Assembly: GCA_947038515.1 (NCBI GenBank)
Contig: CAMQWJ010000004.1
Location: forward strand, 62,001 to 126,000
Origin: an uncultured Fusobacteriaceae bacterium
Lineage (GTDB): Bacteria > Fusobacteriota > Fusobacteriia > Fusobacteriales > Fusobacteriaceae
Direction of reading: 5' to 3'
DNA length: 64,000 nucleotides
The notes under the pieces were generated by a model. That model worked only from the letters and a program-made list of their open reading frames with translations, had not been told where the DNA came from and searched no databases. Of the stretch, positions 19,071 to 64,000 are shown piece after piece (the first letter of the stretch is position 1; every line of letters begins with the position of its first letter). Position numbers and translations under genes: made by a program.

Positions 19071-20102
19071 TTAATAAATAAACATTCCGTCACCAAAACT
19101 AAAAAAATGATACTCTTCTTTTACTGCTTCTTTATATATTTCCATTATAAATTCTCTGTTTGAAAAAGCTGAAACAAGCATTAATAAAGTAGATTTTGGT
19201 AAATGAAAATTAGTTATTAAACAATCCACTACTTTAAATTTGTAACCTGGATAAATAAAAATTTCAGTTTCACCCATTCCTGCCATAAGTTCATCATTTT
19301 CACCAATACTAGATTCTAAACATCGCGTTGTTGTTGTACCAACTGATATAATTCTTCTACCCTCTTTTTTTGCTTGATTTATTTTTTCAGCAGCTTGAAT
19401 AGAGATTTCAAATTTTTCACTGTGCATTTTATGATCAAGAACATCCTCTGTCTGAACAGGTCTAAATGTCCCAAGTCCCACTTCTAAAAAAATATCTACT
19501 ATTTCTATCCCTTTTTCTTCTATTTTTTTTAAAAGTTCTTCTGTAAAATGTAACCCTGCTGTTGGAGCTGCTACTGATTCACCTTTTAGTGCATAAACAG
19601 TTTGATATCTTCCTTTTTCTTTCAAGGTTTCTTGAATATATGGGGGCAAAGGCATTGTTCCTAAATTATCTAACACATCTTCAAAAATTCCTTCATAGAC
19701 AAATTTTAAGATTCGATTACCATCCTCTTTTACTTCTAAAAGTTCTGCTATCATTTCTTTATTATTGCCTATATACAGTTTTTGTCCTACTTTTAATTTT
19801 TTAGCGTGTTTTATTAAGCACTCCCAAGTATCTAAACTTAATCTTTTAACTAATAATACCTCTAAAACTCCACCAGTTTCCTTCTTTCCAAATAACCTAG
19901 CTGGAATTACTTTTGTGGAATTTCTAACCAATATATCACTTGGATTTAAATAGTCTATTATATCGGAAAATATTTTATGTTCTATTTTATTTTTATTTTT
20001 ATCGATTGTCATTAATCTTGCACTATCTCTTGGAGTTCTTGGTAATTGTCCAATTAAATTTTCTGGCAATTCATAATCATAATCCAATAATTTTGTTGAC
20101 AT
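19071..20102 (-). CDS. queA: S-adenosylmethionine:tRNA ribosyltransferase-isomerase
   Basis: A 343-residue enzyme that transfers the ribosyl part of SAM to 7-aminomethyl-deazaguanine in tRNA, a late step of queuosine synthesis. It has DYDYELPENLIGQLPRTPRD, SARLMTIDK, VAAPTAGLHFTEELL, LEVGLGTFRPVQTEDV and the terminal HFFSFGDGMFI. The ATG at 20102 is chosen because GTGAGGA precedes it; it overlaps the end of prmC by 26 bp, showing translational coupling. Confidence 0.95.
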   Translation of the reverse strand: MSTKLLDYDYELPENLIGQLPRTPRDSARLMTIDKNKNKIEHKIFSDIIDYLNPSDILVRNSTKVIPARLFGKKETGGVLEVLLVKRLSLDTWECLIKHAKKLKVGQKLYIGNNKEMIAELLEVKEDGNRILKFVYEGIFEDVLDNLGTMPLPPYIQETLKEKGRYQTVYALKGESVAAPTAGLHFTEELLKKIEEKGIEIVDIFLEVGLGTFRPVQTEDVLDHKMHSEKFEISIQAAEKINQAKKEGRRIISVGTTTTRCLESSIGENDELMAGMGETEIFIYPGYKFKVVDCLITNFHLPKSTLLMLVSAFSNREFIMEIYKEAVKEEYHFFSFGDGMFIY

Positions 20103-49709: not shown

Positions 49710-50480
49710 TTATCCTATGTAGATTGATAAATGAGTTTGCTTCAATAATTTCATTCCTATCTTTCCTGTAATTCTCTCTAAGAAATAACCTCTACTTAGA
49801 TTTCCCATAATTAAGATTCCATTTAGAGATTTATCTGATAAAAAATCCACAACTTCTTCTTTTTTTTCCAATATCTCACTCTTACAGTTATAAGAATGGG
49901 AAGTCAAATATTCTAAAAGGGATCTTTTCTCTGCAATATTCTTTCCCTCTATTAACTTTATATCTTTATGCAATGGAAAACAATTCATAAACTGATAACA
50001 GCTTCTATTTATTTTGACTCCATTATCATTTGCAACAAAAATATTAGTAAAATCTAATGGAGCTTCTCCTTGAATTAATACCGATTTATAATTCTCTTTT
50101 AAAACTTCTAAAAGTAAATCAGAAACTAAGTTTCCTTTTCCAATATAGAGAATATCATTAGTTTTCATTTCCTCTCTTATTATTTCATCAAATATCCCTG
50201 TTTCAAGTTTTATTTCCATTTCAAAATCAATATTTTTTAATTTGGTCTTAATATTTTTTATTTCTTGTTTTCTTAGCTCCAGAAATTCTTCTCTCATAAT
50301 TGTTCGAGTTGTATCATAGATTGCACCCTCTATTCCTTGAGTCATGACACCATCTCGACGTATGTCATTAATATACAATCCTGAAACAGTAAATCCCATT
50401 TTTTCTTTCAAATAAATAGCACCTTCAATTAAGTTTTCTGTTGTTATTTCATTTTCAAATAAAACTAAGATTTTTTTCAC
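49710..50480 (-). CDS. Uncharacterised protein, possible universal-stress-like fold
   Basis: A 256-residue soluble protein I cannot place with certainty. The N-terminal KKILVLFENEITTENLIEGAIYLKEK resembles a universal-stress/adenine-nucleotide alpha-hydrolase fold, followed by a helical region and VLIQGEAPLDFTNIFVANDNG like a second half. GTG at 50480 is set by GGGAGGG six nt upstream. It lies between gyrA and the phosphodiesterase gene. Confidence 0.5.
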   Translation of the reverse strand: MKKILVLFENEITTENLIEGAIYLKEKMGFTVSGLYINDIRRDGVMTQGIEGAIYDTTRTIMREEFLELRKQEIKNIKTKLKNIDFEMEIKLETGIFDEIIREEMKTNDILYIGKGNLVSDLLLEVLKENYKSVLIQGEAPLDFTNIFVANDNGVKINRSCYQFMNCFPLHKDIKLIEGKNIAEKRSLLEYLTSHSYNCKSEILEKKEEVVDFLSDKSLNGILIMGNLSRGYFLERITGKIGMKLLKQTHLSIYIG

Positions 50481-50506
50481 TTTAATCCCTCCCAATATAC
50501 GATTTA

Positions 50507-53086
50507 TTAGTCTACACTTTCATAAATTTCTTCTTCCTCTTCACTTTCTACCAATACCTCTGCACTATCTATATCTTCTGTTATTTTTACTGCATTTCCT
50601 TTTTCTAAATTTTCTAATTTTTCTAATTCTTCTAAAAATTCATCTTCAACCTCTGCTTCTACTTTAGTTATAGAAACAAGTTTCTCTTCATCAGCAATTT
50701 TCATTATTTTAACACCTTGAGTAGCTCTTCCAATAATATTAATTGCTGAAGCTGGTGTTCTTATTACTATACCAGAAGAAGTTATTGCCATTATTTCCTC
50801 ATCTTCTTTTATTGAAGCAACAGAGACTACATCTCCTGTTTTTTCATTACACCTAATATTTATAACACCTTTTCCTGCTCTACCCTGTAAAGGATACTCA
50901 TCTATTCTTGTTCTCTTTCCATATCCATTTTCTGTTATAGTAAATATTATAGAATCATCTGTTACAATGGAAGCTGTTACAACTTCATCTGTTGGTTTTA
51001 AAGAGATCCCTTTAACTCCAGAGGCATTTCTACCTATTTCACGAATTTCATTCATATAAAATCTTATAGAATGACCATTTTTAGTTGCCATAAACATTTG
51101 ATCTTTCTTATCTTCCATAAGTCCAACATAGATAATATCATCATTTTCTCTAAGTTTTATAGCTTTTATTCCATTACTACGAAGATTTTTAAATTCATCT
51201 AAGTTAGTTTTCTTTAAAGTTCCTCTTTTAGTAGCAAAAATAATACTTCTATGCTCTGAAAATTCTGTAACTTTAATTATTGTTTGAACTTTTTCATCTT
51301 CATCTAATTTAATAATATTAGAAATCAATTTCCCTCTCGATTGTTTTGAGAAATCTGGAATTTCATAAACTTTAAGAGCAAAAACCCGCCCTCTATTGGT
51401 AAATATCATTAAAGAGTTTAGATTAGAAGCTGAGTATATTCTTTCTACAAAATCATCTTCTATTGTGTTTTGAGTAGAAACTCCTTTTCCACCTCTCTTC
51501 TGTGCTTTATATTTACTAACTTCCATTCTCTTTACATAACCTTTTTTTGTTACTGTTATTATAACATTCTCATCTTTTATTAAATGTTCTGGTAATATAT
51601 CTAACCGTTCTTCTTCTATCTGTGTTCTACGATTATCATTATATTTTTCTTTTATTTCTATCAAATCAAGTTTTATTATTTCATAAATTCTAGATTCATT
51701 ATTTAATATATCTTTTAAATCAAGAATTAAGATTTGTAATTCTTCAAATTCCTTATCTATTTTACCTTTTTCCATACCTGTAAGTCTTTGTAATCTTAAT
51801 TCCAAAATTGCCTTAGCTTGAGGCTCTGTAAAATTATATTTTGCAATCAAATTTTCTTTTGCTATAGTTGCATCCATTGATCCTCTTATTATCTCTATTA
51901 CACGGTCAATATTTTCTAATGCAATTATAAATCCTTGTAAAATATGAGCTCTTTTTTCTGCTTTATCTAGCTCAAAAACAGATCTTCTTGTTAAAACTTC
52001 CATTCTATGTTTTAAATATTCTTCTAGTATTTCTTTAAGTGTTAAAACTTTAGGTACATTATCACAAAGAGCTAATAAAATTATTCCAAATGTATTTTGA
52101 AGTTCAGTATATTTATATAGTTTATTTAAAATTAACTCAGGCTCTTCACCTTTTTTTATTTCTATTACAACTCTTATTCCATCTCTATCCGACTCATCTC
52201 TAAGATCTGTTATCCCTGTTATTTTCTTCTCTTTTGCTAACATAGCAATTTTTTCTACAAGGGATGCCTTATTTAGCTGATAAGGAATTTCTTTTATTAT
52301 TATACTAGATTTTCCACTTTTTGAAGTTTCAATCTCTACTTTACCTCTAACACGAACTCTACCTCTTCCTGTTAAATAAGCGTCATAGATACCTTTGGTT
52401 CCATCAATTATTCCACCAGTTGGGAAATCTGGACCTTTAATATATTTTATCAGTTCTACAGGTTCTATATCTCTATTTTCAATTAAAGCCAAAACTCCAT
52501 CAACTACTTCTCCAAGATTGTGAGGTGGAATATTAGTTGCCATTCCAACTGCTATTCCTGTTGCACCATTAAGAAGTAAATGTGGAACTCTTGCTGGTAA
52601 AACACAAGGTTCATCTAAAGAGTCATCAAAGTTTTTTCTAAAATCTACTGTATTTTTTTCTAGGTCATCTAATAATTCCCATGTGATTTTAGACATTCTT
52701 GCTTCCGTATATCTCATTGCAGCAGCTCCATCTCCATCAATAGAACCAAAGTTTCCATGTCCATCAACAAGGGGATACCGATAACTAAACTCTTGAGCCA
52801 TTCTTACCATAGTATTATATACAGAAGAATCTCCGTGAGGATGATACTTACCTAAAACTTCTCCAACTATTCTTGCAGATTTTTTGTGAGGCTTATCATG
52901 GGTCATTCCCATTTCACTCATTGCAAATAAAACTCTTCTATGAACAGGTTTTAAACCATCTCTAACATCTGGTAAAGCACGACTTACTATTACACTCATT
53001 GAATAGTCTAAATATGATTGCTTCATCTCATCTTCTATATATCTATTACTTATAGCATCTATTGTATTATCTATACTATTTGACAT
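50507..53086 (-). CDS. gyrA: DNA gyrase subunit A
   Basis: An 859-residue GyrA. The active-site tyrosine lies in [10 protein letters not shown] (Tyr126). The quinolone-determining region reads [18 protein letters not shown]. The GyrA box appears as [12 protein letters not shown] near residue 560, followed by six beta-propeller blades and an acidic C-terminal tail. It introduces negative supercoils with GyrB. It lies 25 bp after gyrB. ATG follows AGGAGAAATA. Confidence 0.97.
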
Positions 53087-53111
53087 TTATTTCTCCTTCA
53101 AACTCACAATT

Positions 53112-55016
53112 TTATACATCTAAATTCTTTACATAAGTTGCATTTTCCTCTATAAATTCTCTTCTTGGTTCAACTTTGTCTCCCATAAGTTTATCAAATA
53201 ATAAGTCTGCTTGACGAGCATCATCAATGGAAACTTGTAATAATGTTCTACTATCTGGATTCATTGTTGTACTCCAAAGTTGTTCTGGATTCATTTCTCC
53301 AAGACCTTTATATCTTTGTAAAGTGTAACGTTTGTTCTCTCTATCAAGATTACTTGTTGCTTCTTTAAGTTGTTTCTCACTATAAGCATAAACTGAACTT
53401 TTTCCTGAACTTACTTTATATAGTGGAGGTTGAGCAATAAAAATATTTCCATTTTGTACAAGTTCAACCATATATCTATAAAGAAAAGTTAATATTAATG
53501 TTCTAATATGTGCACCATCCACATCGGCATCGGTCATTATTATTATTTTTCCATATCTTAATTTTTCGCCATTAAAATTATCTCCAATTCCCGTTCCAAA
53601 GGCTGTTATCATACTTCTAATCTCTGTGTTTTCAAGAGCTCTATGAAGTCCTGATTTTTCAACATTGATAATTTTACCTCTCAATGGCAAAATTGCTTGA
53701 AACGATCTATCTCTTCCTTGTTTAGCAGAACCACCAGCAGATTCTCCCTCAACTATATAAACTTCACATTCTTCAGGTTTTTTAGATGAACAATCTGCTA
53801 ATTTCCCTGGTAATGAACCTACATCTAATGCTGATTTTCTTAAAACTAGTTCCCTTGCTCTTTGAGCTGCTTCTCTTGCTCTTTTAGAATTCAACACTTT
53901 TTCAACTAATTTTCTTGTTTCTTCTGGATTATCTTCTAAAAACATTTTTAAGAAATCTCCTGAAACCTTTGAAGTTATTCCTGTTACTTCTGAATTTCCA
54001 AGTTTTGTTTTTGTTTGTCCTTCAAATTGAGGTTGTGCAACTTTTACAGAAATAATCGCTGTTAGCCCCTCTCTTATATCTCCACCTTGAAGTTTTCCAT
54101 CTTTTTCTTTTAACAACCCTTGAGTTTTAGCTACATCATTTATAACTCTTGTTAAAGCTGTTCTAAAACCACTTACATGAGTTCCACCTTCAGGGGTGTT
54201 TATATTATTTACAAAGGAATATATTGTTTCTTTTTGTGTTATATTATATGTCATAGCGATCTCAACATCAACATTGTCTACATTTCCAGACATAAAGACT
54301 GGAGTAGACATGATAGGAGTCTGTCCTTGCTCTATTTCTTTTATGTAATCTAAAATTCCACCATCAAATTTTAAATCAGAAACTTTATTTTCTTCTTTTC
54401 TTGAGTCTGTAAAAATTATATTTAATCCTCTATTCAAATAAGCTAATTCTTTAAATCTTGTTTCTAAAATAGAAAAACTATATATTAATGTTTCAAAAAT
54501 TTCATGATCTGCTTTAAATTTAAAAGCTGTTCCTGTCCCTTCAGAAACACCTATTACCTCTAAAATACCACAAGGAATACCCCTTTCAAACCTTTGAAAA
54601 TAAAGTTTTTCATCTCTTTTTACTGTAACTTCTGTCCATTCAGATAGAGCATTAACAACTGAAGCACCTACACCGTGAAGTCCTCCTGAAACTTTATAAT
54701 TATCATTCTCAAATTTTCCACCTGCATGTAAGACTGTCATTACTACTTCAAGAGCACTTTTTCCATACTTAGGATGGATACCAGTTGGGATTCCACGTCC
54801 ATTATCTATTATTTCAACTATATTGTCTGGTAAAAGATTCACGTATATTTTATTACAATACCCTGCTAACGCTTCATCTATTGAATTGTCTATAACTTCC
54901 CATACTAAATGGTGTAACCCTCTTTCTGATGTACTTCCTATATACATCCCAGGCCTTTTTCTTACTGCTTCTAGTCCTTCTAAGACTGTTATATCTTCTG
55001 CTTGATAATTATTCAT
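53112..55016 (-). CDS. gyrB: DNA gyrase subunit B
   Basis: A 634-residue GyrB. ATPase motifs [12 protein letters not shown] and [17 protein letters not shown]; Toprim motifs [15 protein letters not shown] and [12 protein letters not shown]. The length is the short type without the large C-terminal insertion. The ATG at 55016 follows GGAGGAAAAA and overlaps the end of the DciA-like gene by 8 bp. Confidence 0.97.
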
Positions 55017-55332
55017 TTTTTCCTCCACAATACTTCATTTTCTCTACTTGAACCGGTCCTACTTTTATTCGGATATTTTTAATATAATTTTCTTGAATCA
55101 ACTTATTACATTTTTCTACAATCATGTTTTCTCTCATGCTTAAATAATGAGAAATAACACTATTCTCTGTTATAATATAAAGGGTTGAATCCTTTAATGT
55201 TTTAGGAAAACTTTTTTTATCTATCTCCCCAACTATATCTTTCCAATTGTTTTTTATAAATACTTCTTTCAATTTTATACTTTTTTTCAAAGCATTTTCT
55301 ATGAGAGTTTTAATATCTATCACTTCTATCAT
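55009..55332 (-). CDS. DUF721/DciA-like protein, probable helicase loader
   Basis: A 107-residue protein with the DUF721 pattern: [39 protein letters not shown]. DciA proteins bind DnaB and assist helicase loading in many bacteria. It lies between recF and gyrB and overlaps both by a few bases, so it is part of the replication cluster. Confidence 0.8.
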
Positions 55333-56432
55333 ATGAATTCCTCTTGAATTTTTCCTTTTTCTATTTTAAACTTTTTATTTTGTATTTCAATCTCTTCTGT
55401 TGAACTTATAAAAAGTTGAATCTCTCTTTTTTTTAAGTATTCTAATATATTTTTTTTTCTATTAGAATCAAAGTATGATGAAATATCATCTATTATAAAT
55501 ATTGGATTTTCTTTTTTTTCACGAAAGATCATATCAATCTCTGAGAGTTTTAAAGAAAAAACTATAGATTTTTTTTCCCCTTGAGATGAGTATGATTTTG
55601 CATCTTTTCCATCTAATAAAAACTTAAATTCATCTCTTTGTGGACCAACTAATGAATAACCATATTTTTTTTCTAAAAGAGTTTGTTTTTTTATCTCTTC
55701 GCTTATTTTAAACTCTATTTCTTTTAAAGTATCTTTTCTACTATACTCTATATTTGAAATATAACTTAGTCCCAACTCTTTTTTATCATCAAAAATTTTT
55801 CTATAATTTAAATTAAGGATTATTCCAATATTTTTCATATATTCCATACGATTCAAAACTATTTTTCCTGCTAAAGTTATAAACTCATTTTCATATATAG
55901 AAAAAATTTCTTCTTTTGTCTTTTTTTCTTTTAAATATTGATTTCTAATTTTCAAAATTTTATTATAATTTTTAAGGTTTATATAATATTCGTTTTGTGC
56001 TTGGGAAATTTCTTCATCAAAAAATTTTCTTCTCACACTGGGAGAACCAGTTATTAACTCTATATCTTCTGGAATAAAAATAACAACATTTATTTTTCCA
56101 AAAAATTCTTCATGTGATACTTTTTTACCGTTAAAATTATAATCTTTCTTTTTGTCATTAAATTTAACAGTTAAATTTTTCTCCCCTTCTCTATCCTTAA
56201 AAGCTATGTAAGTTCCACATTTAGCATTATTATACTTTATAAGCTCAACTACCTTACTAGTTCGAAAACTTTTTCCTGTTGCAGTGAAATAAATGGCTTC
56301 AAGTATGCTTGTTTTACCTTGACCATTTTTACCATGAAATAAGTTGAAACCTGATTCAAACTTTATATTAAAATCATCTAAATTTCTAAAATTTATAAAA
56401 TTAATTTCTTTTATTTCCACCAATTTCACCAC
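55329..56432 (-). CDS. recF: DNA repair/replication protein RecF
   Basis: A 367-residue RecF, an SMC-like ATPase. Walker A is FHGKNGQGKTSILEA near residues 32-46. The signature motif is YSSQGEKKSIVFSL, and the Walker B is FIIDDISSYFDSNR. It binds at single-strand gaps and helps load RecA. GTG at 56432 is the longest frame; internal GTG or TTG codons at the start are also possible, and no ribosome-binding site decides. It overlaps the DciA-like gene by 4 bp. Confidence 0.94.
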   Translation of the reverse strand: MVKLVEIKEINFINFRNLDDFNIKFESGFNLFHGKNGQGKTSILEAIYFTATGKSFRTSKVVELIKYNNAKCGTYIAFKDREGEKNLTVKFNDKKKDYNFNGKKVSHEEFFGKINVVIFIPEDIELITGSPSVRRKFFDEEISQAQNEYYINLKNYNKILKIRNQYLKEKKTKEEIFSIYENEFITLAGKIVLNRMEYMKNIGIILNLNYRKIFDDKKELGLSYISNIEYSRKDTLKEIEFKISEEIKKQTLLEKKYGYSLVGPQRDEFKFLLDGKDAKSYSSQGEKKSIVFSLKLSEIDMIFREKKENPIFIIDDISSYFDSNRKKNILEYLKKREIQLFISSTEEIEIQNKKFKIEKGKIQEEFI

Positions 56433-56438
56433 TCATTT

Positions 56439-56654
56439 TTATTTTTCTTGAACAACTTCATAAATTTTTTCTTGGAAACTAATTATATCACCGTGATAGA
56501 GTTTTCTTCCTCTTCTAAGTTCTTTTTCATTGTTTACTAAAACTTTACCCTCTTGAATATAATATTTTGCATCTGTACCACTATTTACTGTTCCACTCCA
56601 TTTTAAAAATTGATCAAGCTTTATAAACTCACTTTGTATTTTTATTTTTTCCAT
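56439..56654 (-). CDS. yaaA: S4-domain protein YaaA
   Basis: A 71-residue S4 RNA-binding domain: IKLDQFLKWSGTVNSGTDAKYYIQEGKVLVNNEKELRRGRKL. YaaA genes sit between dnaN and recF in many Gram-positive origins; the same position beside recF is kept here, but dnaA and dnaN are not. The ATG at 56654 follows TTGGAGGAAAA. Confidence 0.87.
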   Translation of the reverse strand: MEKIKIQSEFIKLDQFLKWSGTVNSGTDAKYYIQEGKVLVNNEKELRRGRKLYHGDIISFQEKIYEVVQEK

Positions 56655-56770
56655 TTTTCCTCCAAATAAAAACATTTTCTTCCACATCTATAATACCATA
56701 TTTTTTTTGAAAAATATAGTTCTACTTTCAACAATACTCTTTTCACACCTTATATTATTTAATACTATTT

Positions 56771-58669
56771 TTATTTTCCTTCCTCATCCATTACTTTTTT
56801 TATAAATTCTTTTATTGTGTTTTTATATGCTGGTTTCAACTTGTCTCGCATAGTTAATATAATTTTTTCTGTTATTTCCATTTCTTTTGAACATAATTTT
56901 ATTGCTTTTTTTTCAATTTGAGCCTTTCTATATTCGTCACTTTTTTCAAATTTTTCCATGGCTTTTTTTAGTTCTTTTTCATGAGCGTCAACATTATCGT
57001 TTAAAGTTGTATCAAATAATTTTTGTGTTGTCTCTATATCTTTTTTCTCCAGTGTTGTTACTGCTTTATTAAAAGTTTTTCCAACTCTTTTTATCCCTGT
57101 CTTTGTAAATTTTTGTAAGTTTTCTTTTTTCTCATCTTCTGTAAATCCATTAAATAATGTTAAATTTCTTTTTTTAGGTACTTCTGAATCAGTTAAAATA
57201 TTTTTAACAACACCATTTATATATTGAACAAGTGTTGTTTTTATTGGTGAAGTCAAATTTTTATAAATTTCATTCAAGATTTTAATAATAAACTCTTCCC
57301 CCTCTTGAATAAAAATTTTATATATTTTGTTCTCACTTCTTTTATCCCAACTTTTATTGACATATAAATTTCTTTTTACTTTTTTTATTTTTTCAAGTAC
57401 TTCCACAGGATAATTATATCCTATAGTTTTCGGTGCTAAACTCTCTTTTTTTACTATTTCTTTTTTTTCTAACACTTCATTGATTTCTATTTTATTTTTT
57501 GTTAATAATTTTACTTTATTTTTTGCTGCTATTTGAGTTTTTTCTTTATTAGTTTTACTATCTATGTAAGTAGAAATATGACAAGTTCCATCTTTTTCTT
57601 TATTAAATTTATAAGTTATATTATAAGTATTTTGTTCTTTTATTTCTTCTATACTATAAACTTCTATATATCCAAGCTCCAATATAACATCAAAAGCTTT
57701 TTGAATTCTACTTAAAACTTGTTTTAATCTACATAATATATATTGTTTTGTTTTTCCATTTTTTCCAACTCTCTCAGTAATTTGATCTGTTTTTAAAGGG
57801 ATAATCGCAGCCAATGTTCTAATATTAATAGTATCTATGGTTTGTTCATATCTTATTTTACTTATATATTTATAGATTCTAGCAGCTATTGGATCTAAAT
57901 TCATTATTTCAACTAGTGTTTTCGAATTATATTTCACATATCTTTTTTCTTTTATTTTTTTTCTTATATTTTTATTTAATGTTACTCTATAGTATATTTT
58001 TTTCCCCATTTTTAATTTTTGATATGTTAACAATTTAAATTCTTCATCTTCAAACTTATATTTTCCTAACTTAGTATGATTGGAAACTACAAATTGATAC
58101 TCAGTACTTTTTAAGTTTTTTAAAGCTTGTTCTACTTTAGTATAATAAGTTCTATTCATTTTGTTTCCTAAAAAATTAACAATAAAATCTGAGATTTCAA
58201 AATCAATATACTCATCTCCCTCTTCAACATCCATTTTAGATTCATATAATGATATTAAATAAGTATAAATTTTTTCTTCAAATATAGAGGGTTGAAAAAC
58301 TTTATCTGCACTATTTTTAGCAATTAAAGTACACATCATATTCACTCCCATATCTTCAAAAGTATACTGGATATTGACTCTTTTTTTCTGTTTCTGGGGA
58401 GTAAAGAATGGAAAAATTAACATTTCAACCGGAATATTTATAATATTATCTTTTAAATTTAAAAAGTTTCCTGTCTCTTTTATTACAACTTCTCTGACTT
58501 CAATATCAGGTAGCTCTTCTAATTTTATTTCAACTTTTTGTATTTCCTCTATTAACAAAGGATTTGAACCTATAATTTCTTTTTCTAAATTTTCTTCTTT
58601 ATTTTTTTCTATTAAAGTTGTAGAATCTATTATCTCATAAATTTCAATTTTTTCTTTTTCATTATTCAT
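56771..58669 (-). CDS. Plasmid RepA-like replication initiator in the dnaA position
   Basis: A 632-residue protein resembling plasmid initiators of the RepA (PF10134-type) or Rep_3 winged-helix class. The N-terminal ~85 residues are acidic and low in structure. Two winged-helix blocks follow (about 85-235: FFTPQKQKKRVNIQYTFEDMG; YLISLYESKMDVEEG; FIVNFLGNKMNRTYYTKVEQ. About 240-355: EIMNLDPIAARIYKYISKIRYEQ; LAAIIPLKTDQITERVGKNG; CRLKQVLSRIQKAFDVI). The C-terminal ~270 residues are Lys/Glu-rich and helical. No AAA+ Walker motif or DnaA domain IV is present. It is upstream of yaaA-recF-gyrB-gyrA and divergent from rpmH, the usual dnaA-dnaN slot. Family fit is by pattern, not search. Confidence 0.65.
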   Translation of the reverse strand: MNNEKEKIEIYEIIDSTTLIEKNKEENLEKEIIGSNPLLIEEIQKVEIKLEELPDIEVREVVIKETGNFLNLKDNIINIPVEMLIFPFFTPQKQKKRVNIQYTFEDMGVNMMCTLIAKNSADKVFQPSIFEEKIYTYLISLYESKMDVEEGDEYIDFEISDFIVNFLGNKMNRTYYTKVEQALKNLKSTEYQFVVSNHTKLGKYKFEDEEFKLLTYQKLKMGKKIYYRVTLNKNIRKKIKEKRYVKYNSKTLVEIMNLDPIAARIYKYISKIRYEQTIDTINIRTLAAIIPLKTDQITERVGKNGKTKQYILCRLKQVLSRIQKAFDVILELGYIEVYSIEEIKEQNTYNITYKFNKEKDGTCHISTYIDSKTNKEKTQIAAKNKVKLLTKNKIEINEVLEKKEIVKKESLAPKTIGYNYPVEVLEKIKKVKRNLYVNKSWDKRSENKIYKIFIQEGEEFIIKILNEIYKNLTSPIKTTLVQYINGVVKNILTDSEVPKKRNLTLFNGFTEDEKKENLQKFTKTGIKRVGKTFNKAVTTLEKKDIETTQKLFDTTLNDNVDAHEKELKKAMEKFEKSDEYRKAQIEKKAIKLCSKEMEITEKIILTMRDKLKPAYKNTIKEFIKKVMDEEGK

Positions 58670-59286
58670 CCAAGCACCTCTTTAAAATATTTTTTAATTA
58701 GCTAAAAATATTATACCTTTTTTTGTGTCTATGTACAATAATATTTTTAATAACTTTAATTATCGTTTTTCTTTTTTAACTCCTAGAAAAAATTTACAAT
58801 TCAATTTTTCTTACAAACAATAATAAAAAATAAACTTGCATTTAATTATCTTTATATTTAAAAAAATTATTTTTATTCAACAAATCAAACAGAAAAATTA
58901 ATGTCTACTCACAATAATATAAAGTGTCGGTTAAAATTTTAAGTCTCTCAACAAATAATAAAATTATAAATAAATAAATAATAATAAAATTATAAAGTTT
59001 TTTCATTGTATAAGGTTAATAATAAAAAATAAAAAATAAAGTTTTTTTTCATTTGTAATGACTCAAATTTTTCACTCTTAAATAAAAGTTTAGTCATTAC
59101 ATTATACATCCTACATAAACAACTAAAACTTTTTATCTGTTGTTGTTTTTTATTTTTTATTTTTCTCTTATAGATAAAACTATCAAAATGCTTTTAGTTC
59201 CTTTTTTAAATAACTCTTGACAAATATCAAATAATCTTATAAGATAATAGTCTGAATGAAGTAAAAATCTAGGAGGTGAAACATAT
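58670..59286. other. Candidate chromosomal origin: 617-bp A+T-rich spacer
   Basis: No gene is seen. Transcription diverges from here, and the flanking genes are those of a typical oriC. Visible repeats: AATAATAAAATTATAAA at 58954-58970 and again at 58980-58996; AATAATAAAAAATAAA at 58819-58834 and 59018-59033; AAAGTTTTTTCATTG (58994) and AAAGTTTTTTTTCATTTG (59039). Also an inverted repeat TGTAATGACT (59054-59063) with AGTCATTACA (59092-59101). No sequence matching TTATNCACA was found on either strand by eye. Confidence 0.6.
59217..59245 (+). promoter_or_regulatory. Promoter of rpmH
   Basis: Perfect TTGACA (59217-59222), 17-bp spacer, TAAGAT (59240-59245); a GATAAT 3 bp further is an alternative -10. 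Confidence 0.7.
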
Positions 59287-59421
59287 ATGAAAAGAACGTT
59301 CCAACCTAATAATCATAAAAGAAAAAAAGACCACGGTTTTAGATCTAGAATGAAGACTAAAAACGGAAGAAAAGTCTTGAAAAGAAGAAGAGATAGAGGA
59401 AGAGCTGTATTATCAGCATAA
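59287..59421 (+). CDS. rpmH: 50S ribosomal protein L34
   Basis: A 44-residue L34: [39 protein letters not shown] and VLSA. The ATG at 59287 follows TAGGAGGTGAA. It is first of the rpmH-rnpA-yidD-yidC-jag-mnmE run that marks the origin in many bacteria. Confidence 0.97.
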
Positions 59422-59449
59422 AACCCGGTGCATATTTCACCGGGTTTTT
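59421..59449 (+). terminator. Hairpin overlapping the rpmH stop codon
   Basis: AAACCCGGTG (59421-59430) pairs with CACCGGGTTT (59438-59447), followed by T's. It probably makes rpmH far more abundant than the downstream genes by partial termination. Confidence 0.85.
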
Positions 59450-59491
59450 CAAAATATAAATTTCTTTTTTTATTTATTTTAAGGAGAGAAG

Positions 59492-59854
59492 ATGGAAATA
59501 TCTAGATTAAAAAAAGATAAAGAGTTTCAAATAGTATATAATAGTGGAAATAAAGAATTTGGATATTATTCTTTAATTTTTTATAAAAAAATGAAAAATA
59601 AAAATGAAGTATCAAAGATAGGATACGTAGCTAGTAAAAAAACAGGAAATGCAGTATGTAGAAATAGATTAAGAAGATTATTAAAAGAATTTTTCAGATT
59701 AAATACCTTAAAATTAAAAACAGGGTATAATATAGTCTGTGTAGCTAAAAAAAAAGCTGGTGAAAACATTACAGTTTTAAAATATCAAGATATAGAAAAG
59801 GATATGAATAAAGTATTAAAAAAAGCTAACCTAATAGAAAGTAAGATAAAATAA
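59492..59854 (+). CDS. rnpA: Ribonuclease P protein component
   Basis: A 120-residue basic protein: RLKKDKEFQIVYNSGNKEFGYYSLIFYKK, then IGYVASKKTGNAVCRNRLRRLLKEFFR, the RNR motif of RnpA. It binds RNase P RNA and matures tRNA 5' ends. ATG follows AAGGAGAGAAG. Confidence 0.95.
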   Translation: MEISRLKKDKEFQIVYNSGNKEFGYYSLIFYKKMKNKNEVSKIGYVASKKTGNAVCRNRLRRLLKEFFRLNTLKLKTGYNIVCVAKKKAGENITVLKYQDIEKDMNKVLKKANLIESKIK

Positions 59855-59864
59855 AAAGAGTATA

Positions 59865-59895
59865 TCCTAATTATTTATTAAAAAGTATTAGGAGG
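59865..59895 (+). promoter_or_regulatory. Hairpin overlapping the yidD ribosome-binding site
   Basis: TCCTAAT (59865-59871) pairs with ATTAGGA (59887-59893), which contains part of AGGAGG. The distance from AGGAGG to the ATG at 59910 is 14 nt, longer than usual. Confidence 0.5.
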
Positions 59896-59909
59896 TTAAA
59901 AAATTAAAA

Positions 59910-60119
59910 ATGAAAATAATAATTTTATCATTAATAAAATTTTATCAATTATATATTTCAAAAATTTTTGGAAAAAAATGTAGATTTTACCCAACTTGTT
60001 CAGCTTATACCTATCAAGCAATTGAGAAATATGGAGTAATAAAAGGTATATACTTGGGTATAAAAAGAATTGTAAAATGTCATCCCTTTCATCCAGGAGG
60101 AATAGATTTTTTACCATAA
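59910..60119 (+). CDS. yidD: Membrane protein insertion efficiency factor YidD
   Basis: A 69-residue Yid[36 protein letters not shown] and HPGGIDFLP, the complete family pattern with three cysteines. It is membrane-associated and aids YidC-dependent insertion. Lies between rnpA and yidC as in many genomes. Confidence 0.94.
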
Positions 60120-60133
60120 TAACGGAGGAAAAA

Positions 60134-60805
60134 ATGAGTGTATTATATGAATTTATAGCAACAATACTAACAAAATTATTTGAATTAACTGGTAATTTTG
60201 GATTGGCAATTATAGCAATAACAATATTAACTAAAATAGTAACCTTACCTTTGACACTAAAACAAGATAAATCGATGAGAGCTATGAAAGAATTACAACC
60301 AAAATTAGAAAAAATCAAGCAAAAATATAAAGATGATCCAACAATGATTAATCAAAAAACGATGGAACTATATAAAAGTGAAAAAATAAACCCAGCGGCA
60401 GGATGTTTACCATTATTGATACAAATGCCAATCTTATTTGCACTTTTTGGTGTTTTAAGAATAAATCCAGAGATAGTTTCAAAAGCAGGAGAAGTTGTAT
60501 ATCCTTTTATATACTTACCAACAGTACCTTCAACTGAAACATTTTTATGGCTATCACTAGGAGTTCCTGATCACCTATATATTTTACCAGCTCTAAATGG
60601 TATTTTATCTTTCTTCCAGCAAAAAATGACAGGTGCTGGAGATTCAAATCCACAAATGAAAAATATGATGTATATATTTCCTGTTATGATGGTATTTATT
60701 TCTTATAAAATGCCGGCTGGATTGCAATTATACTGGGTAGTGTCGAGTTTAGCGGGACTAGTTCAACAATATTGGATTGTAAAAAGAGGAGAGAAAAGAA
60801 ATTAA
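60134..60805 (+). CDS. yidC: Membrane protein insertase YidC (short form)
   Basis: A 223-residue protein with five hydrophobic helices and no large periplasmic domain, like Gram-positive YidC/SpoIIIJ. NFGLAIIAITILTKIVTLPLTLKQDKSMRAMKELQP and AAGCLPLLIQMPILFALFGVL are the core signature. The ATG at 60134 follows GGAGGAAAAA. No lipobox is seen. Confidence 0.93.
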   Translation: MSVLYEFIATILTKLFELTGNFGLAIIAITILTKIVTLPLTLKQDKSMRAMKELQPKLEKIKQKYKDDPTMINQKTMELYKSEKINPAAGCLPLLIQMPILFALFGVLRINPEIVSKAGEVVYPFIYLPTVPSTETFLWLSLGVPDHLYILPALNGILSFFQQKMTGAGDSNPQMKNMMYIFPVMMVFISYKMPAGLQLYWVVSSLAGLVQQYWIVKRGEKRN

Positions 60806-60806
60806 T

Positions 60807-61553
60807 ATGAAAAAAACTATTGAAATAAAATCAATGTCAAAAGAAGCTGCAGTTAAAAGAGCATTAAAAATATTAGATGCTGTGGAAGAAAATGTTGTAA
60901 GCATTCAAGAGAAAGTAAAAAGTAGATCATTTTTTGGATTATTTAATAAAGAAGGAATTTATGATATAACTATTGATACAGAACAAAAAAAATCTACTAT
61001 AAATAAAGAAGTTATAAAAACAGAAGCAACAAAAGAAATAAAAAAAGAAGTGAAGATAGAAAATATTAGTGAAGATAGAAAATTAGAAGCACAACCAAAT
61101 AAATATTCAGAAAAAGAAGATAAAAGCGAATTTATTTTAGAAAAAGTACAAAAAATAATCGATTTGATGGATTTAACTTTAACTGCCACTGTCTCAAAGG
61201 GAGAAGGAACAGTTTATAATGTTAATTTATTTGGAGAAGAAAAAGGTATTATAATTGGTAAAAAAGGTAAAACTTTAATGGCTCTTGAAAATATATTAAA
61301 TTGTATTATTAGAGGTTGTAGAATAGAGGTTAATGTTGAAGATTTTAAAGAAAAAAGAAATGAAACATTAAGAGAAGTAGCAAGAAAAATGTCTGAAAAA
61401 GCTTTAGCGACAGGTAAAACAATAAGATTAAATTCAATGCCTGCAAAAGAAAGAAAGATTATACATGAAGTTGTAAATACTTATTCTGAATTAGATACAT
61501 TTAGTGAAGGAAAAGAACCAAAAAGATATATTGTTATAAAAAGAAAAAAGTAG
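60807..61553 (+). CDS. jag: RNA-binding protein Jag/KhpB
   Basis: A 248-residue protein. The N-terminal Jag-N domain carries [19 protein letters not shown] charged linker follows, then a type II KH domain [19 protein letters not shown] and an R3H domain [31 protein letters not shown]. KhpB binds RNAs and affects envelope growth in other bacteria. Starts 1 bp after yidC. Confidence 0.92.
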
Positions 61554-61560
61554 GTGTAAC

Positions 61561-62928
61561 ATGTATGATACTATAGCAGCTATTTCAACTCCCAAAGGTG
61601 AAGGTGGAATAGGAATTGTTAGAATTTCAGGTAAAGACGCATTTGAAATATTAGAAAAAATATTTAAACCACATTCAAAAAAAAAAATTAGTGAAATGAA
61701 AACTTTTACAATTAACTATGGAATACTTCATAATAATGATGAAGTAATAGATGAGGTATTAGTATCTATTTTAAGAGCACCAAGTACTTATACAAGAGAA
61801 AATATGGTTGAAATTAACTGTCATGGTGGATATATCGTAACAGAAAAAGTACTAGAAACAGTATTAAGATATGGTGCACGTCATAGTGAAATTGGTGAAT
61901 TTACTAGAAGAGCTTTTTTAAATGGAAGAATTGATTTAACACAGGCAGAAGCAGTACTGGATATAATACATGGAAAGACAGAGAAGAGTGTTTCTCTGTC
62001 TTTGAATCAGTTAAGAGGAGATTTAAAAGAGCAAATAGCAACATTAAAAAAATTATTATTAGATGTAGCAGCTCATATAAATGTAGTATTAGACTATCCT
62101 GAAGAAGGAATAGAAGATCCTTTACCTCTTAATCTTGTTGATAATCTTAATTTTGTTATGAAAACAACTGATCTTTTAATTGGTTCTTATGATAAAGGAA
62201 AATTAATAAAAGAAGGATTGAAAACAGCAATAGTAGGGAAACCAAATGTTGGAAAATCTAGTTTATTAAACTCAATATTACGTGAAGATCGAGCTATAGT
62301 AACACATATTCCTGGTACAACAAGAGATATAATAGAAGAAGTAATAAATCTAAACGGAATCCCTTTAGTACTTATTGATACAGCAGGAATAAGAAAAACA
62401 GAAGATTTAGTTGAACATATGGGAATAGAAAAATCTAAAAAAATGATGAAAGAGTGTGAACTTCTTTTATTCGTAATTGATGGTTCTAAAAAAATTGATA
62501 AAGAAGATATAGCAATTCATGAAAATATTAAAGATGAAAACGTTATAGGGATTATCAATAAGATTGATATAAAAGAAAAAATAGATCTTACACCTCTTTC
62601 TAAGGTGAAAAATTGGATTGAAATTTCTACTAAAGAAAATATTGGAATAGAAGAAATGGAAGAGAAGATTTATTCATTTATAATAAGAGAAGATATTGAA
62701 GAAACCTCTCAAAAATTAATTATTACCAACATTAGACATAAGACAGCTTTAGAAAAAACAAAAGATGCAATAAATAATATATTTGAAACTATAAATACAG
62801 GATTACCAATGGATTTAATAGCAGTGGATTTGAAAGAAGCACTAGATTCATTATCTGAAGTTACTGGTGAAATAAGTAGTGAAGACTTATTAGATCATAT
62901 ATTTAAAAATTTTTGTGTTGGAAAATAA
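61561..62928 (+). CDS. mnmE: tRNA modification GTPase MnmE
   Basis: A 455-residue MnmE. The formyl-THF-binding N-terminus has [20 protein letters not shown] helical domain follows, with the inserted G domain: [32 protein letters not shown]. The C-terminus ends CVGK, the catalytic motif. With MnmG it modifies wobble uridine in tRNA. Starts 7 bp after jag; GTGTAAC is the only nearby ribosome-binding site. Confidence 0.95.
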
Positions 62929-62961
62929 ATAAATTAATTATTTAAATAAAATATTTATAAA

Positions 62962-63002
62962 AAAAATAACTTTAATAGTATAAATCTATTAGAGTTATTT
63001 TT
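62962..63002 (+). terminator. Terminator after mnmE
   Basis: AAAAATAACTTTAATAG (62962-62978) pairs with CTATTAGAGTTATTTTT (62986-63002) with one wobble and a 7-nt loop, followed by a few T's. mnmG is not seen directly after. Confidence 0.82.
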
Positions 63003-63023
63003 AATAATAGTGGGGGAGAAAAA

Positions 63024-63857
63024 ATGAAAAATAAAATTAATCTTAATTTTTTTAAAGTATTTATAGTGGTATTAGCCATAGTTTTAGCTACAGAATTCAT
63101 AGGAGAAACAACTGTAAATATAGGGAAAATAAAATTAGCCTTTTTTCCTATGTTGTATGCTGTAATTATCGGGTTACTGATAACTCCGGATTTATTAGGA
63201 AAGAAAATAAAAGAATTAAAAAAAATTGTAGGAGAAAAGGAAATAGACATAGCTGGAGAAGTTGTTGGAATAGTATTAATAATGTTAGGAATTAAATATG
63301 GAACTTCAGTAGGACCTAATTTAGAAAAAATACTAGGAGCAGGACCTGCTTTTTTGGCTCAAGAATTAGGACATATTATAGCTCCTATAATAGCATTACC
63401 AATTGCAATTATGATGGGAATGAAAAGAGAAGCTATCGGGGCAGCTACAAGTATAAGTAGAGAACCTTCCTTAGGGGTAATTAGTGAAAAATATGGAATA
63501 AATTCACCAGAGGGAAATGGAATATTAGGAACATATCTTGTTGGAACTGTACTGGGTACGATTTATTTTGGAATATTAGGATCTGTATCAATTTACAGTG
63601 GTTTACACCCATATGCTTTGGCAATGGCTTGTGGAGTAGGAAGTGGAAGTATGACAACAGCAGCAGTATCTTCATTGGCATTGGTAGTTCCTTCTGAAAT
63701 GAAAGAAACAGTTGTTGCATATGCAGCTACGAGTAATATGCTTTCAGGAATAACAGGAGTTAATTTTTTAATATTTGTAACTTTGCCTTTTTCAAATTGG
63801 TTTTATAAGAAATTAATAAAAATAAAATTAAGGGGGGAAAGTAATGAAATTAAATAA
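63024..63857 (+). CDS. DUF3100 membrane protein
   Basis: A 277-residue membrane protein with about eight helices. It starts FKVFIVVLAIVLATEFIGETTVNIGKIKLAFFPMLYAVIIGLL, contains GTSVGPNLEKILGAGPAFLAQELG and REAIGAATSISREPSLGVISEKYG, and matches the DUF3100 pattern. These genes occur with amidohydrolases and are thought to be transporter-like (inference from general context). ATG follows GGGGGAGAAA. Overlaps the next gene by 14 bp. Confidence 0.8.
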   Translation: MKNKINLNFFKVFIVVLAIVLATEFIGETTVNIGKIKLAFFPMLYAVIIGLLITPDLLGKKIKELKKIVGEKEIDIAGEVVGIVLIMLGIKYGTSVGPNLEKILGAGPAFLAQELGHIIAPIIALPIAIMMGMKREAIGAATSISREPSLGVISEKYGINSPEGNGILGTYLVGTVLGTIYFGILGSVSIYSGLHPYALAMACGVGSGSMTTAAVSSLALVVPSEMKETVVAYAATSNMLSGITGVNFLIFVTLPFSNWFYKKLIKIKLRGESNEIK

Positions 63858-64000
63858 TGAAAAATTAGCTTATCAATTATTGGTAATGCTCTTTGCAGGT
63901 TTAATAATATTATTAGGTCAAAAAATAGGAATGGGAATCTCAATTATAAAAGCTTTACCAGGAATGTTACTACTTATTGCAGCAGCAATGAGTGCAATGG
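63844..64000 (+). CDS. Partner membrane protein of DUF3100, cut by window
   Basis: The frame begins with ATG at 63844 after GGGGGGAAAG, inside the end of the DUF3100 gene, and is open to the window edge. The 52 visible residues are MKLNNEKLAYQLLVMLFAG, then IILLGQKIGMGISI, then LLIAAAMSA, i.e. two hydrophobic helices. In related operons the partner of DUF3100 is a small membrane protein; here only its N-terminus is visible. Confidence 0.6.
   Translation, partial: MKLNNEKLAYQLLVMLFAGLIILLGQKIGMGISIIKALPGMLLLIAAAMSAM

Follow-up and report, generated by a model that had tools for sequence, protein, structure and literature searches.

The window analysed here, a stretch of 64,000 nucleotides from the genome of an uncultured Fusobacteriaceae bacterium (contig CAMQWJ010000004.1, positions 62,001 to 126,000), carries a gene, denoted here as rep, that lies between rpmH on one side and yaaA, recF, gyrB and gyrA on the other and encodes a 632-residue protein resembling plasmid replication initiators. 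In bacteria, this junction is usually occupied by dnaA and dnaN, and both are missing at the rep locus; DnaA itself is regarded as the near-universal bacterial initiator. The initial annotation of the window had proposed that a plasmid-type protein has replaced DnaA at the chromosomal origin, or works with it. The comparison of sequences across the family leads to a more specific proposal: Rep would be the iteron-binding, plasmid-type initiator of the main chromosome in the Fusobacteriaceae, having taken the place of DnaA in the family's ancestor, and the probability of this reading is put at roughly 0.88. The iterons, their overlap with the rep promoter and the family-wide scope are additions to what had been annotated.

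The first piece of evidence is the absence of DnaA. The assembly of the window's genome (1.78 Mb in 23 contigs) is estimated to be 100% complete, and a search for the DnaA AAA+ domain (PF00308) gave no match in it at E ≤ 1e-3, while control genomes do match; DnaA domain IV (PF08299) was not matched in this genome either, so that no dnaA was found at another locus. The search was extended to a set of 100 genomes, 61 of which belong to the Fusobacteriaceae (family f1), the others including further families of Fusobacteriota. A convincing DnaA was found in 0 of the 61, with PF00308 matches that were weak only (best 3e-12), and domain IV rose above background in 0 of 37 Fusobacteriaceae genomes, versus a clear match in 24 of 24 sister-family genomes. 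The other Fusobacteriota families match PF00308 at E-values from 1e-45 to 1e-75, except for one incomplete genome (G094, 82% complete). Six of the weak PF00308 matches were scanned against Pfam and rejected as DnaA, because the best family was IstB_IS21 for five of them and a generic AAA family, followed by IstB, for the sixth, both scoring above DnaA.

A strongly diverged or unassembled DnaA that cooperates with Rep could be imagined, since the window's assembly is in 23 contigs and extreme divergence can escape profile searches, but it is very unlikely: both DnaA domains are missing family-wide, single-contig Fusobacteriaceae genomes included, all six scanned matches are closer to IstB or other AAA proteins, and the origin lacks DnaA boxes. 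Indeed, no site with one mismatch or fewer to the DnaA box TTATCCACA was present in 19 rep–rpmH gaps, and the same scan did find such boxes in the DnaA-type origins of sister families. Replacement of DnaA by Rep is thus favoured over co-working, because the DnaA domains were found neither in the genome nor, convincingly, in the family, and are present in the sister families.

The second piece of evidence is a set of directional repeats adjoining rep. In the rep–rpmH gaps of the 19 origins, which include related species, so that the site counts are not all independent, the sequence TATTATTGnnnATATACA occurs at 156 sites with up to 3 mismatches, versus 11.9 expected, and at 2 mismatches 111 sites lie on the rep strand versus 7 on the opposite strand. 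The same motif emerged when words were counted without bias in 12 more divergent origins. These are directional repeats next to an initiator gene in an AT-rich origin, the arrangement that characterizes an iteron-type replicon. Genome-wide, the Fusobacteriaceae carry a mean of about 16 sites, versus 2.3 for the reversed pattern, and the DnaA-bearing family f4 carries about 2.9, versus 1.25 reversed; in three closed genomes the sites are concentrated at the origin and in the flanking 10 kb or so to each side. In 13 of the 19 origins, the rep-proximal iteron provides the TTG of a -35 box, followed at 17–18 bp by a TATAAT-like -10 box. The elements of the window are the following:

56771..58669, minus strand: rep, plasmid-type replication initiator of 632 residues, starting with ATG (open reading frame, PF10134 match, 26-sequence alignment and fold matches in the PDB).
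58670..59286: proposed chromosomal origin, the AT-rich rep–rpmH intergenic region, where the GC skew changes sign.
58710..58738, minus strand: rep promoter predicted from sequence, with -35 TTGTAC inside iteron 1, a 17-bp spacer and -10 TATAAT.
58726..58743, minus strand: iteron 1, TATTATTGTACATAGACA, with 1 mismatch, sharing bases with the -35 box of the rep promoter.
58808..58825, minus strand: possible degenerate iteron, weak, 4 mismatches.
58902..58919, minus strand: iteron TATTATTGTGAGTAGACA, 2 mismatches.
59007..59024, minus strand: iteron TATTATTAACCTTATACA, 2 mismatches, 105 bp from the preceding iteron.
59091..59120, minus strand: second conserved element of the origin, GTTTATGTAGGATGTATAATGTAATGACTA, towards rpmH, a candidate unwinding or initiation site (family motif, 27.5 bits).
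59287..59421, plus strand: rpmH, divergent border of the origin region (sequence, and tblastn of relatives).

In most plasmids of this kind, iterons lie about two helical turns (20–22 bp) apart. The family departs from this norm, since 57 of 92 spacings between neighbouring iterons fall within 91–95, 101–107 or 115–118 bp, and these classes (about 94, 105 and 116 bp) approximate 9, 10 and 11 turns of the helix. These values do no more than suggest helical phasing, because a Rayleigh test did not single out 10.5 bp, the 105-bp class being dominant. As for the second element, a strand-specific motif near TTTTTTGTATnATGTTAnATGTACAGACTA was found in 19 of 19 gaps, mostly 115–280 bp from rpmH; beside the score of the window given above, the other 18 origins score from 18.6 to 37.9 bits. 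That it is the site of unwinding is a guess.

A third piece of evidence came from the GC skew, taken as a proxy for replication direction that stands in for marker-frequency data and is not a measurement of initiation. In the window the skew changes sign between 58 and 60 kb, and in Fusobacterium vincentii it does so at rep. Three closed genomes whose records do not start at the origin, G006, G018 and G021 (F. gastrosuis), were sampled in stretches, and in each the GC skew, the AT skew and the coding strand switch within about 2 kb of rep, which brings the genomes with a flip at rep to five in all. From these patterns, it is proposed that the chromosome origin lies in the rep–rpmH region. The skew also bears on whether the chromosome might be replicated without any dedicated initiator, through R-loops or recombination, as perhaps in some of the DnaA-less cyanobacteria and insect symbionts, which likewise lost dnaA from their main chromosome and in which this loss accompanies DnaA–oriC-independent replication (PMC7198777). 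However, the DnaA-less cyanobacterial clade displays an irregular GC skew (PMC7198777), while in the Fusobacteriaceae a dedicated candidate initiator is found at a sharp skew switch, which makes such a mode of replication extremely unlikely here.

Alternatively, Rep might act only in transcription or in maintenance, or be left over from a plasmid that integrated, with initiation driven by something unrecognised; Rep-like proteins can be repressors, and the rep promoter shares sequence with an iteron. This is improbable, because a relic is not expected to persist at the same spot in almost every Fusobacteriaceae genome while its core stays highly conserved; rep also lies where the iteron array and the skew switch are found, and no other initiator was detected.

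The features of the protein are in keeping with a role of Rep as initiator. In an alignment of 26 sequences, a strongly conserved core (about residues 54–366) is made of two winged-helix-like domains, the C-terminal part (about 425–630) is helical, and no conserved P-loop was found; a Walker-A-like string is present in one orthologue only, within a variable stretch, and PF00308 does not match Rep at E ≤ 1. AlphaFold2 models of the full-length protein and of the core were compared with the PDB by Foldseek, and the sole matches of the two models at E ≤ 1e-3 were RctB, Pi bound to iteron DNA and RepE bound to operator DNA, all with a probability of 0.99–1.00. These models support an iteron-initiator fold for Rep, with tandem winged-helix domains like those of RepE, Pi and RctB, and the two winged-helix-like blocks without an AAA+ motif that had been annotated are borne out. 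The accompanying label was RepA/Rep_3-like. Rep matches the PF10134 (RPA) profile at E = 4.8e-6 with 26.7 bits, just under the gathering cut-off of 27, and 19 of the 26 orthologues match it at E ≤ 0.1 (best 1.2e-7); PF01051 (Rep_3) is not among the profile matches of Rep at E ≤ 1, the likeness on that side being to the folds of RepE (F) and Pi (R6K), which are of the Rep_3 type. Rep differs from these proteins in falling below the curated RPA cut-off, in its long additional N- and C-terminal parts and in its chromosomal role. A sequence-profile search of the PDB with Rep matched ETS factors alone, by chance, and neither NCBIfam nor PHROGs gave a meaningful match. Scanned viral contigs of IMG/VR yielded no confirmed relative, so that a phage source is not indicated.

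Rep is not a peculiarity of the window. An orthologue is present in 35 of 37 Fusobacteriaceae genomes, two further genomes of the window's genus being in the comparison, and among those named are Cetobacterium, Propionigenium, Ilyobacter, Psychrilyobacter and Fusobacterium, besides other Fusobacteriaceae. These names suggest that the window comes from an uncultured genus of the family. One of the 35 (G030) holds only a Rep fragment at a contig edge. In the two assemblies without Rep (G003 and G019), recF is located about 0.3–0.5 kb from a contig end, and the missing rep would lie past that end. All named loci with a long enough contig keep the gene order towards rpmH. In contrast, yaaA–recF lies outside the fetched flank of rep in several relatives (for instance, Cetobacterium L041–L046), and in G028 rep is on C6 and recF on C2; since yaaA–recF–gyrBA is not beside rep in some relatives, the rpmH–rep side is the more stable boundary. 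The complete arrangement of the window is found in the chromosome of F. vincentii. A 2.1-Mb record of this species, NZ_CP084075.1, is filed as plasmid pSB055A; as it carries rpmH, rnpA, recF, gyrB, gyrA and rep, it is evidently the chromosome.

Some clues to the ancestry of Rep were derived from megaplasmids. In Haliovirga abyssi, a member of a sister family, the chromosome retains DnaA (G038 C1), unlike those of the Fusobacteriaceae, and the record of the 298-kb plasmid pHIC opens with a Rep relative, followed by ParA and ParB. Other Rep relatives are borne by the Ilyobacter plasmids pILYOP01 and pILYOP02 (962 and 124 kb). These megaplasmid Reps are homologous to the chromosomal one (33–38% identity), and they resemble it in that rep is at the record start with its own repeats upstream. 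The second element scores 21.7 bits in pHIC and 23.7 bits in pILYOP01, both outside the training set, versus shuffle maxima of 16.0 and 15.0; pILYOP02 fails the motif (2.9 bits), although a similar string is visible by eye. The differences are their location on plasmids, their other repeat sequences and the presence of parA beside rep in pHIC and pILYOP02. By eye and without counting, the repeats upstream of rep seem to form a separate family in each of the three plasmids, an example from pILYOP02 being ATTCTCCGCAAGTGTGATGG. A second, distant Rep relative (G000:C11:2621-2941, in a 529-residue frame) was noticed in the window's genome, on a 51.7-kb contig that is probably a plasmid.

In the phylogenetic tree, whose root is not fixed, the chromosomal Reps fall on one side of a branch with support of 78/87, and this distribution of sequences agrees with a single capture and vertical inheritance thereafter. 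It is likely that a single capture of a plasmid Rep–iteron module in the ancestor of the Fusobacteriaceae replaced the DnaA–oriC system of the main chromosome throughout this free-living family, and that Rep and DciA accomplish the whole of initiation without DnaA, from iterons with unusually long, possibly helically phased spacing. Haliovirga, with a DnaA chromosome and a Rep megaplasmid, is a plausible intermediate.

Several observations weigh against these proposals. The confidence of the AlphaFold2 models is modest (mean predicted local distance difference test, pLDDT, of 59–62) and their template modelling (TM) scores are low (0.24–0.50), so that the assignment of the fold leans on the Foldseek ranking and on the weak similarity to RPA. 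The overlap of promoter and iteron is clear only in the 13 origins mentioned, the array of the window itself is small and degenerate, with three good sites (58726, 58902 and 59007), and some iteron-like sites are found inside genes and far from the origin, as at 19760. Finally, the single chromosomal clade is moderately supported, and the tree contains several long branches.

A mechanism can be envisaged, the steps of which are inferred. Rep would bind the iterons head-to-tail and open AT-rich DNA close to the second element, where DnaB would be loaded with the participation of DciA and without DnaA. Rep would also repress its own promoter, and the extra iterons up to about 10 kb from the origin may titrate or handcuff it, limiting initiation, by analogy with RctB (PMC6090056). 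The iteron-like sites outside the intergenic region, which possibly serve for such titration or handcuffing, include 19760 and 42022 in the window, and those at 272951–284934 in G006, 381999–392410 in G018 and 606866–622857 in G021, mostly near the origin and some in genes.

The closest known system is that of RctB and ori2 on chromosome 2 of Vibrio cholerae. RctB, a top fold match of Rep, is likewise an iteron initiator, with directional iterons beside its gene, an initiator site over its own promoter and titration sites that form a cluster on the replicon itself (PMC6090056). However, RctB serves a secondary chromosome, and the cell has kept DnaA; ori2 includes a DnaA site, and its 12-mers are spaced by 10–11 bp (PMC6090056), versus about 105 bp in the Fusobacteriaceae, where Rep would serve the main chromosome and DnaA is absent. 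Initiation by iterons and Rep is thus known, and what seems new is that a free-living family apparently relies on it alone for its main chromosome; no free-living species without dnaA had been reported outside cyanobacteria (PMC7198777). In the literature searched, there was no report of the replacement or loss of DnaA in fusobacteria beyond a remark made in 2007, although most subscription journals and preprints fell outside that search and earlier notice is possible.

If the proposal is correct, the whole family, Fusobacterium included, would offer a natural example of a main chromosome run by a plasmid-type system, which would account for the 2007 remark and concern relatives of Fusobacterium nucleatum, a bacterium of the human mouth and colon. 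Fusobacteria should then be insensitive to inhibitors directed at DnaA. It would also open to testing how a plasmid-type initiator is controlled to act once per cycle, how the helicase is loaded when DciA is present and DnaA is not, and by what route one initiator comes to be swapped for another, Haliovirga being a plausible intermediate.

The surroundings of rep, confirmed as annotated by open reading frames and profile matches, comprise on the plus strand, divergent from rep, rpmH, rnpA, yidD, yidC, jag and mnmE, and on the other side the following genes:

56439..56687, minus strand: yaaA (S4 domain), TIGR02988 above cut-off.
55329..56432, minus strand: recF, TIGR00611 above cut-off.
55009..55332, minus strand: dciA, helicase-loader candidate, PF05258 at E = 4.9e-9, above cut-off.
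53112..55028, minus strand: gyrB, open reading frame, position kept in relatives.
50507..53086, minus strand: gyrA, open reading frame, position kept in relatives.

The profile match establishes the DciA-like neighbour noted at the outset, and Fusobacteria are listed among the phyla with dciA near recF/gyrB (PMC5109545). As no IstB/DnaC-like gene was found in the window's genome at E ≤ 1e-3, DciA is the sole helicase-loader candidate found there. Rfam gave no match within 50000–64000, and PF02195 (ParB_N) had none at E ≤ 1e-3 across the genome, so that there was no sign of a standard ParABS partition system. A search of the genome for dnaN located two beta-clamp genes on separate contigs, neither of them at the origin (G000:C6:49176-49862 and G000:C2:108397-109113, in frames of 367 and 383 residues), and the DnaB gene is located on yet another contig.
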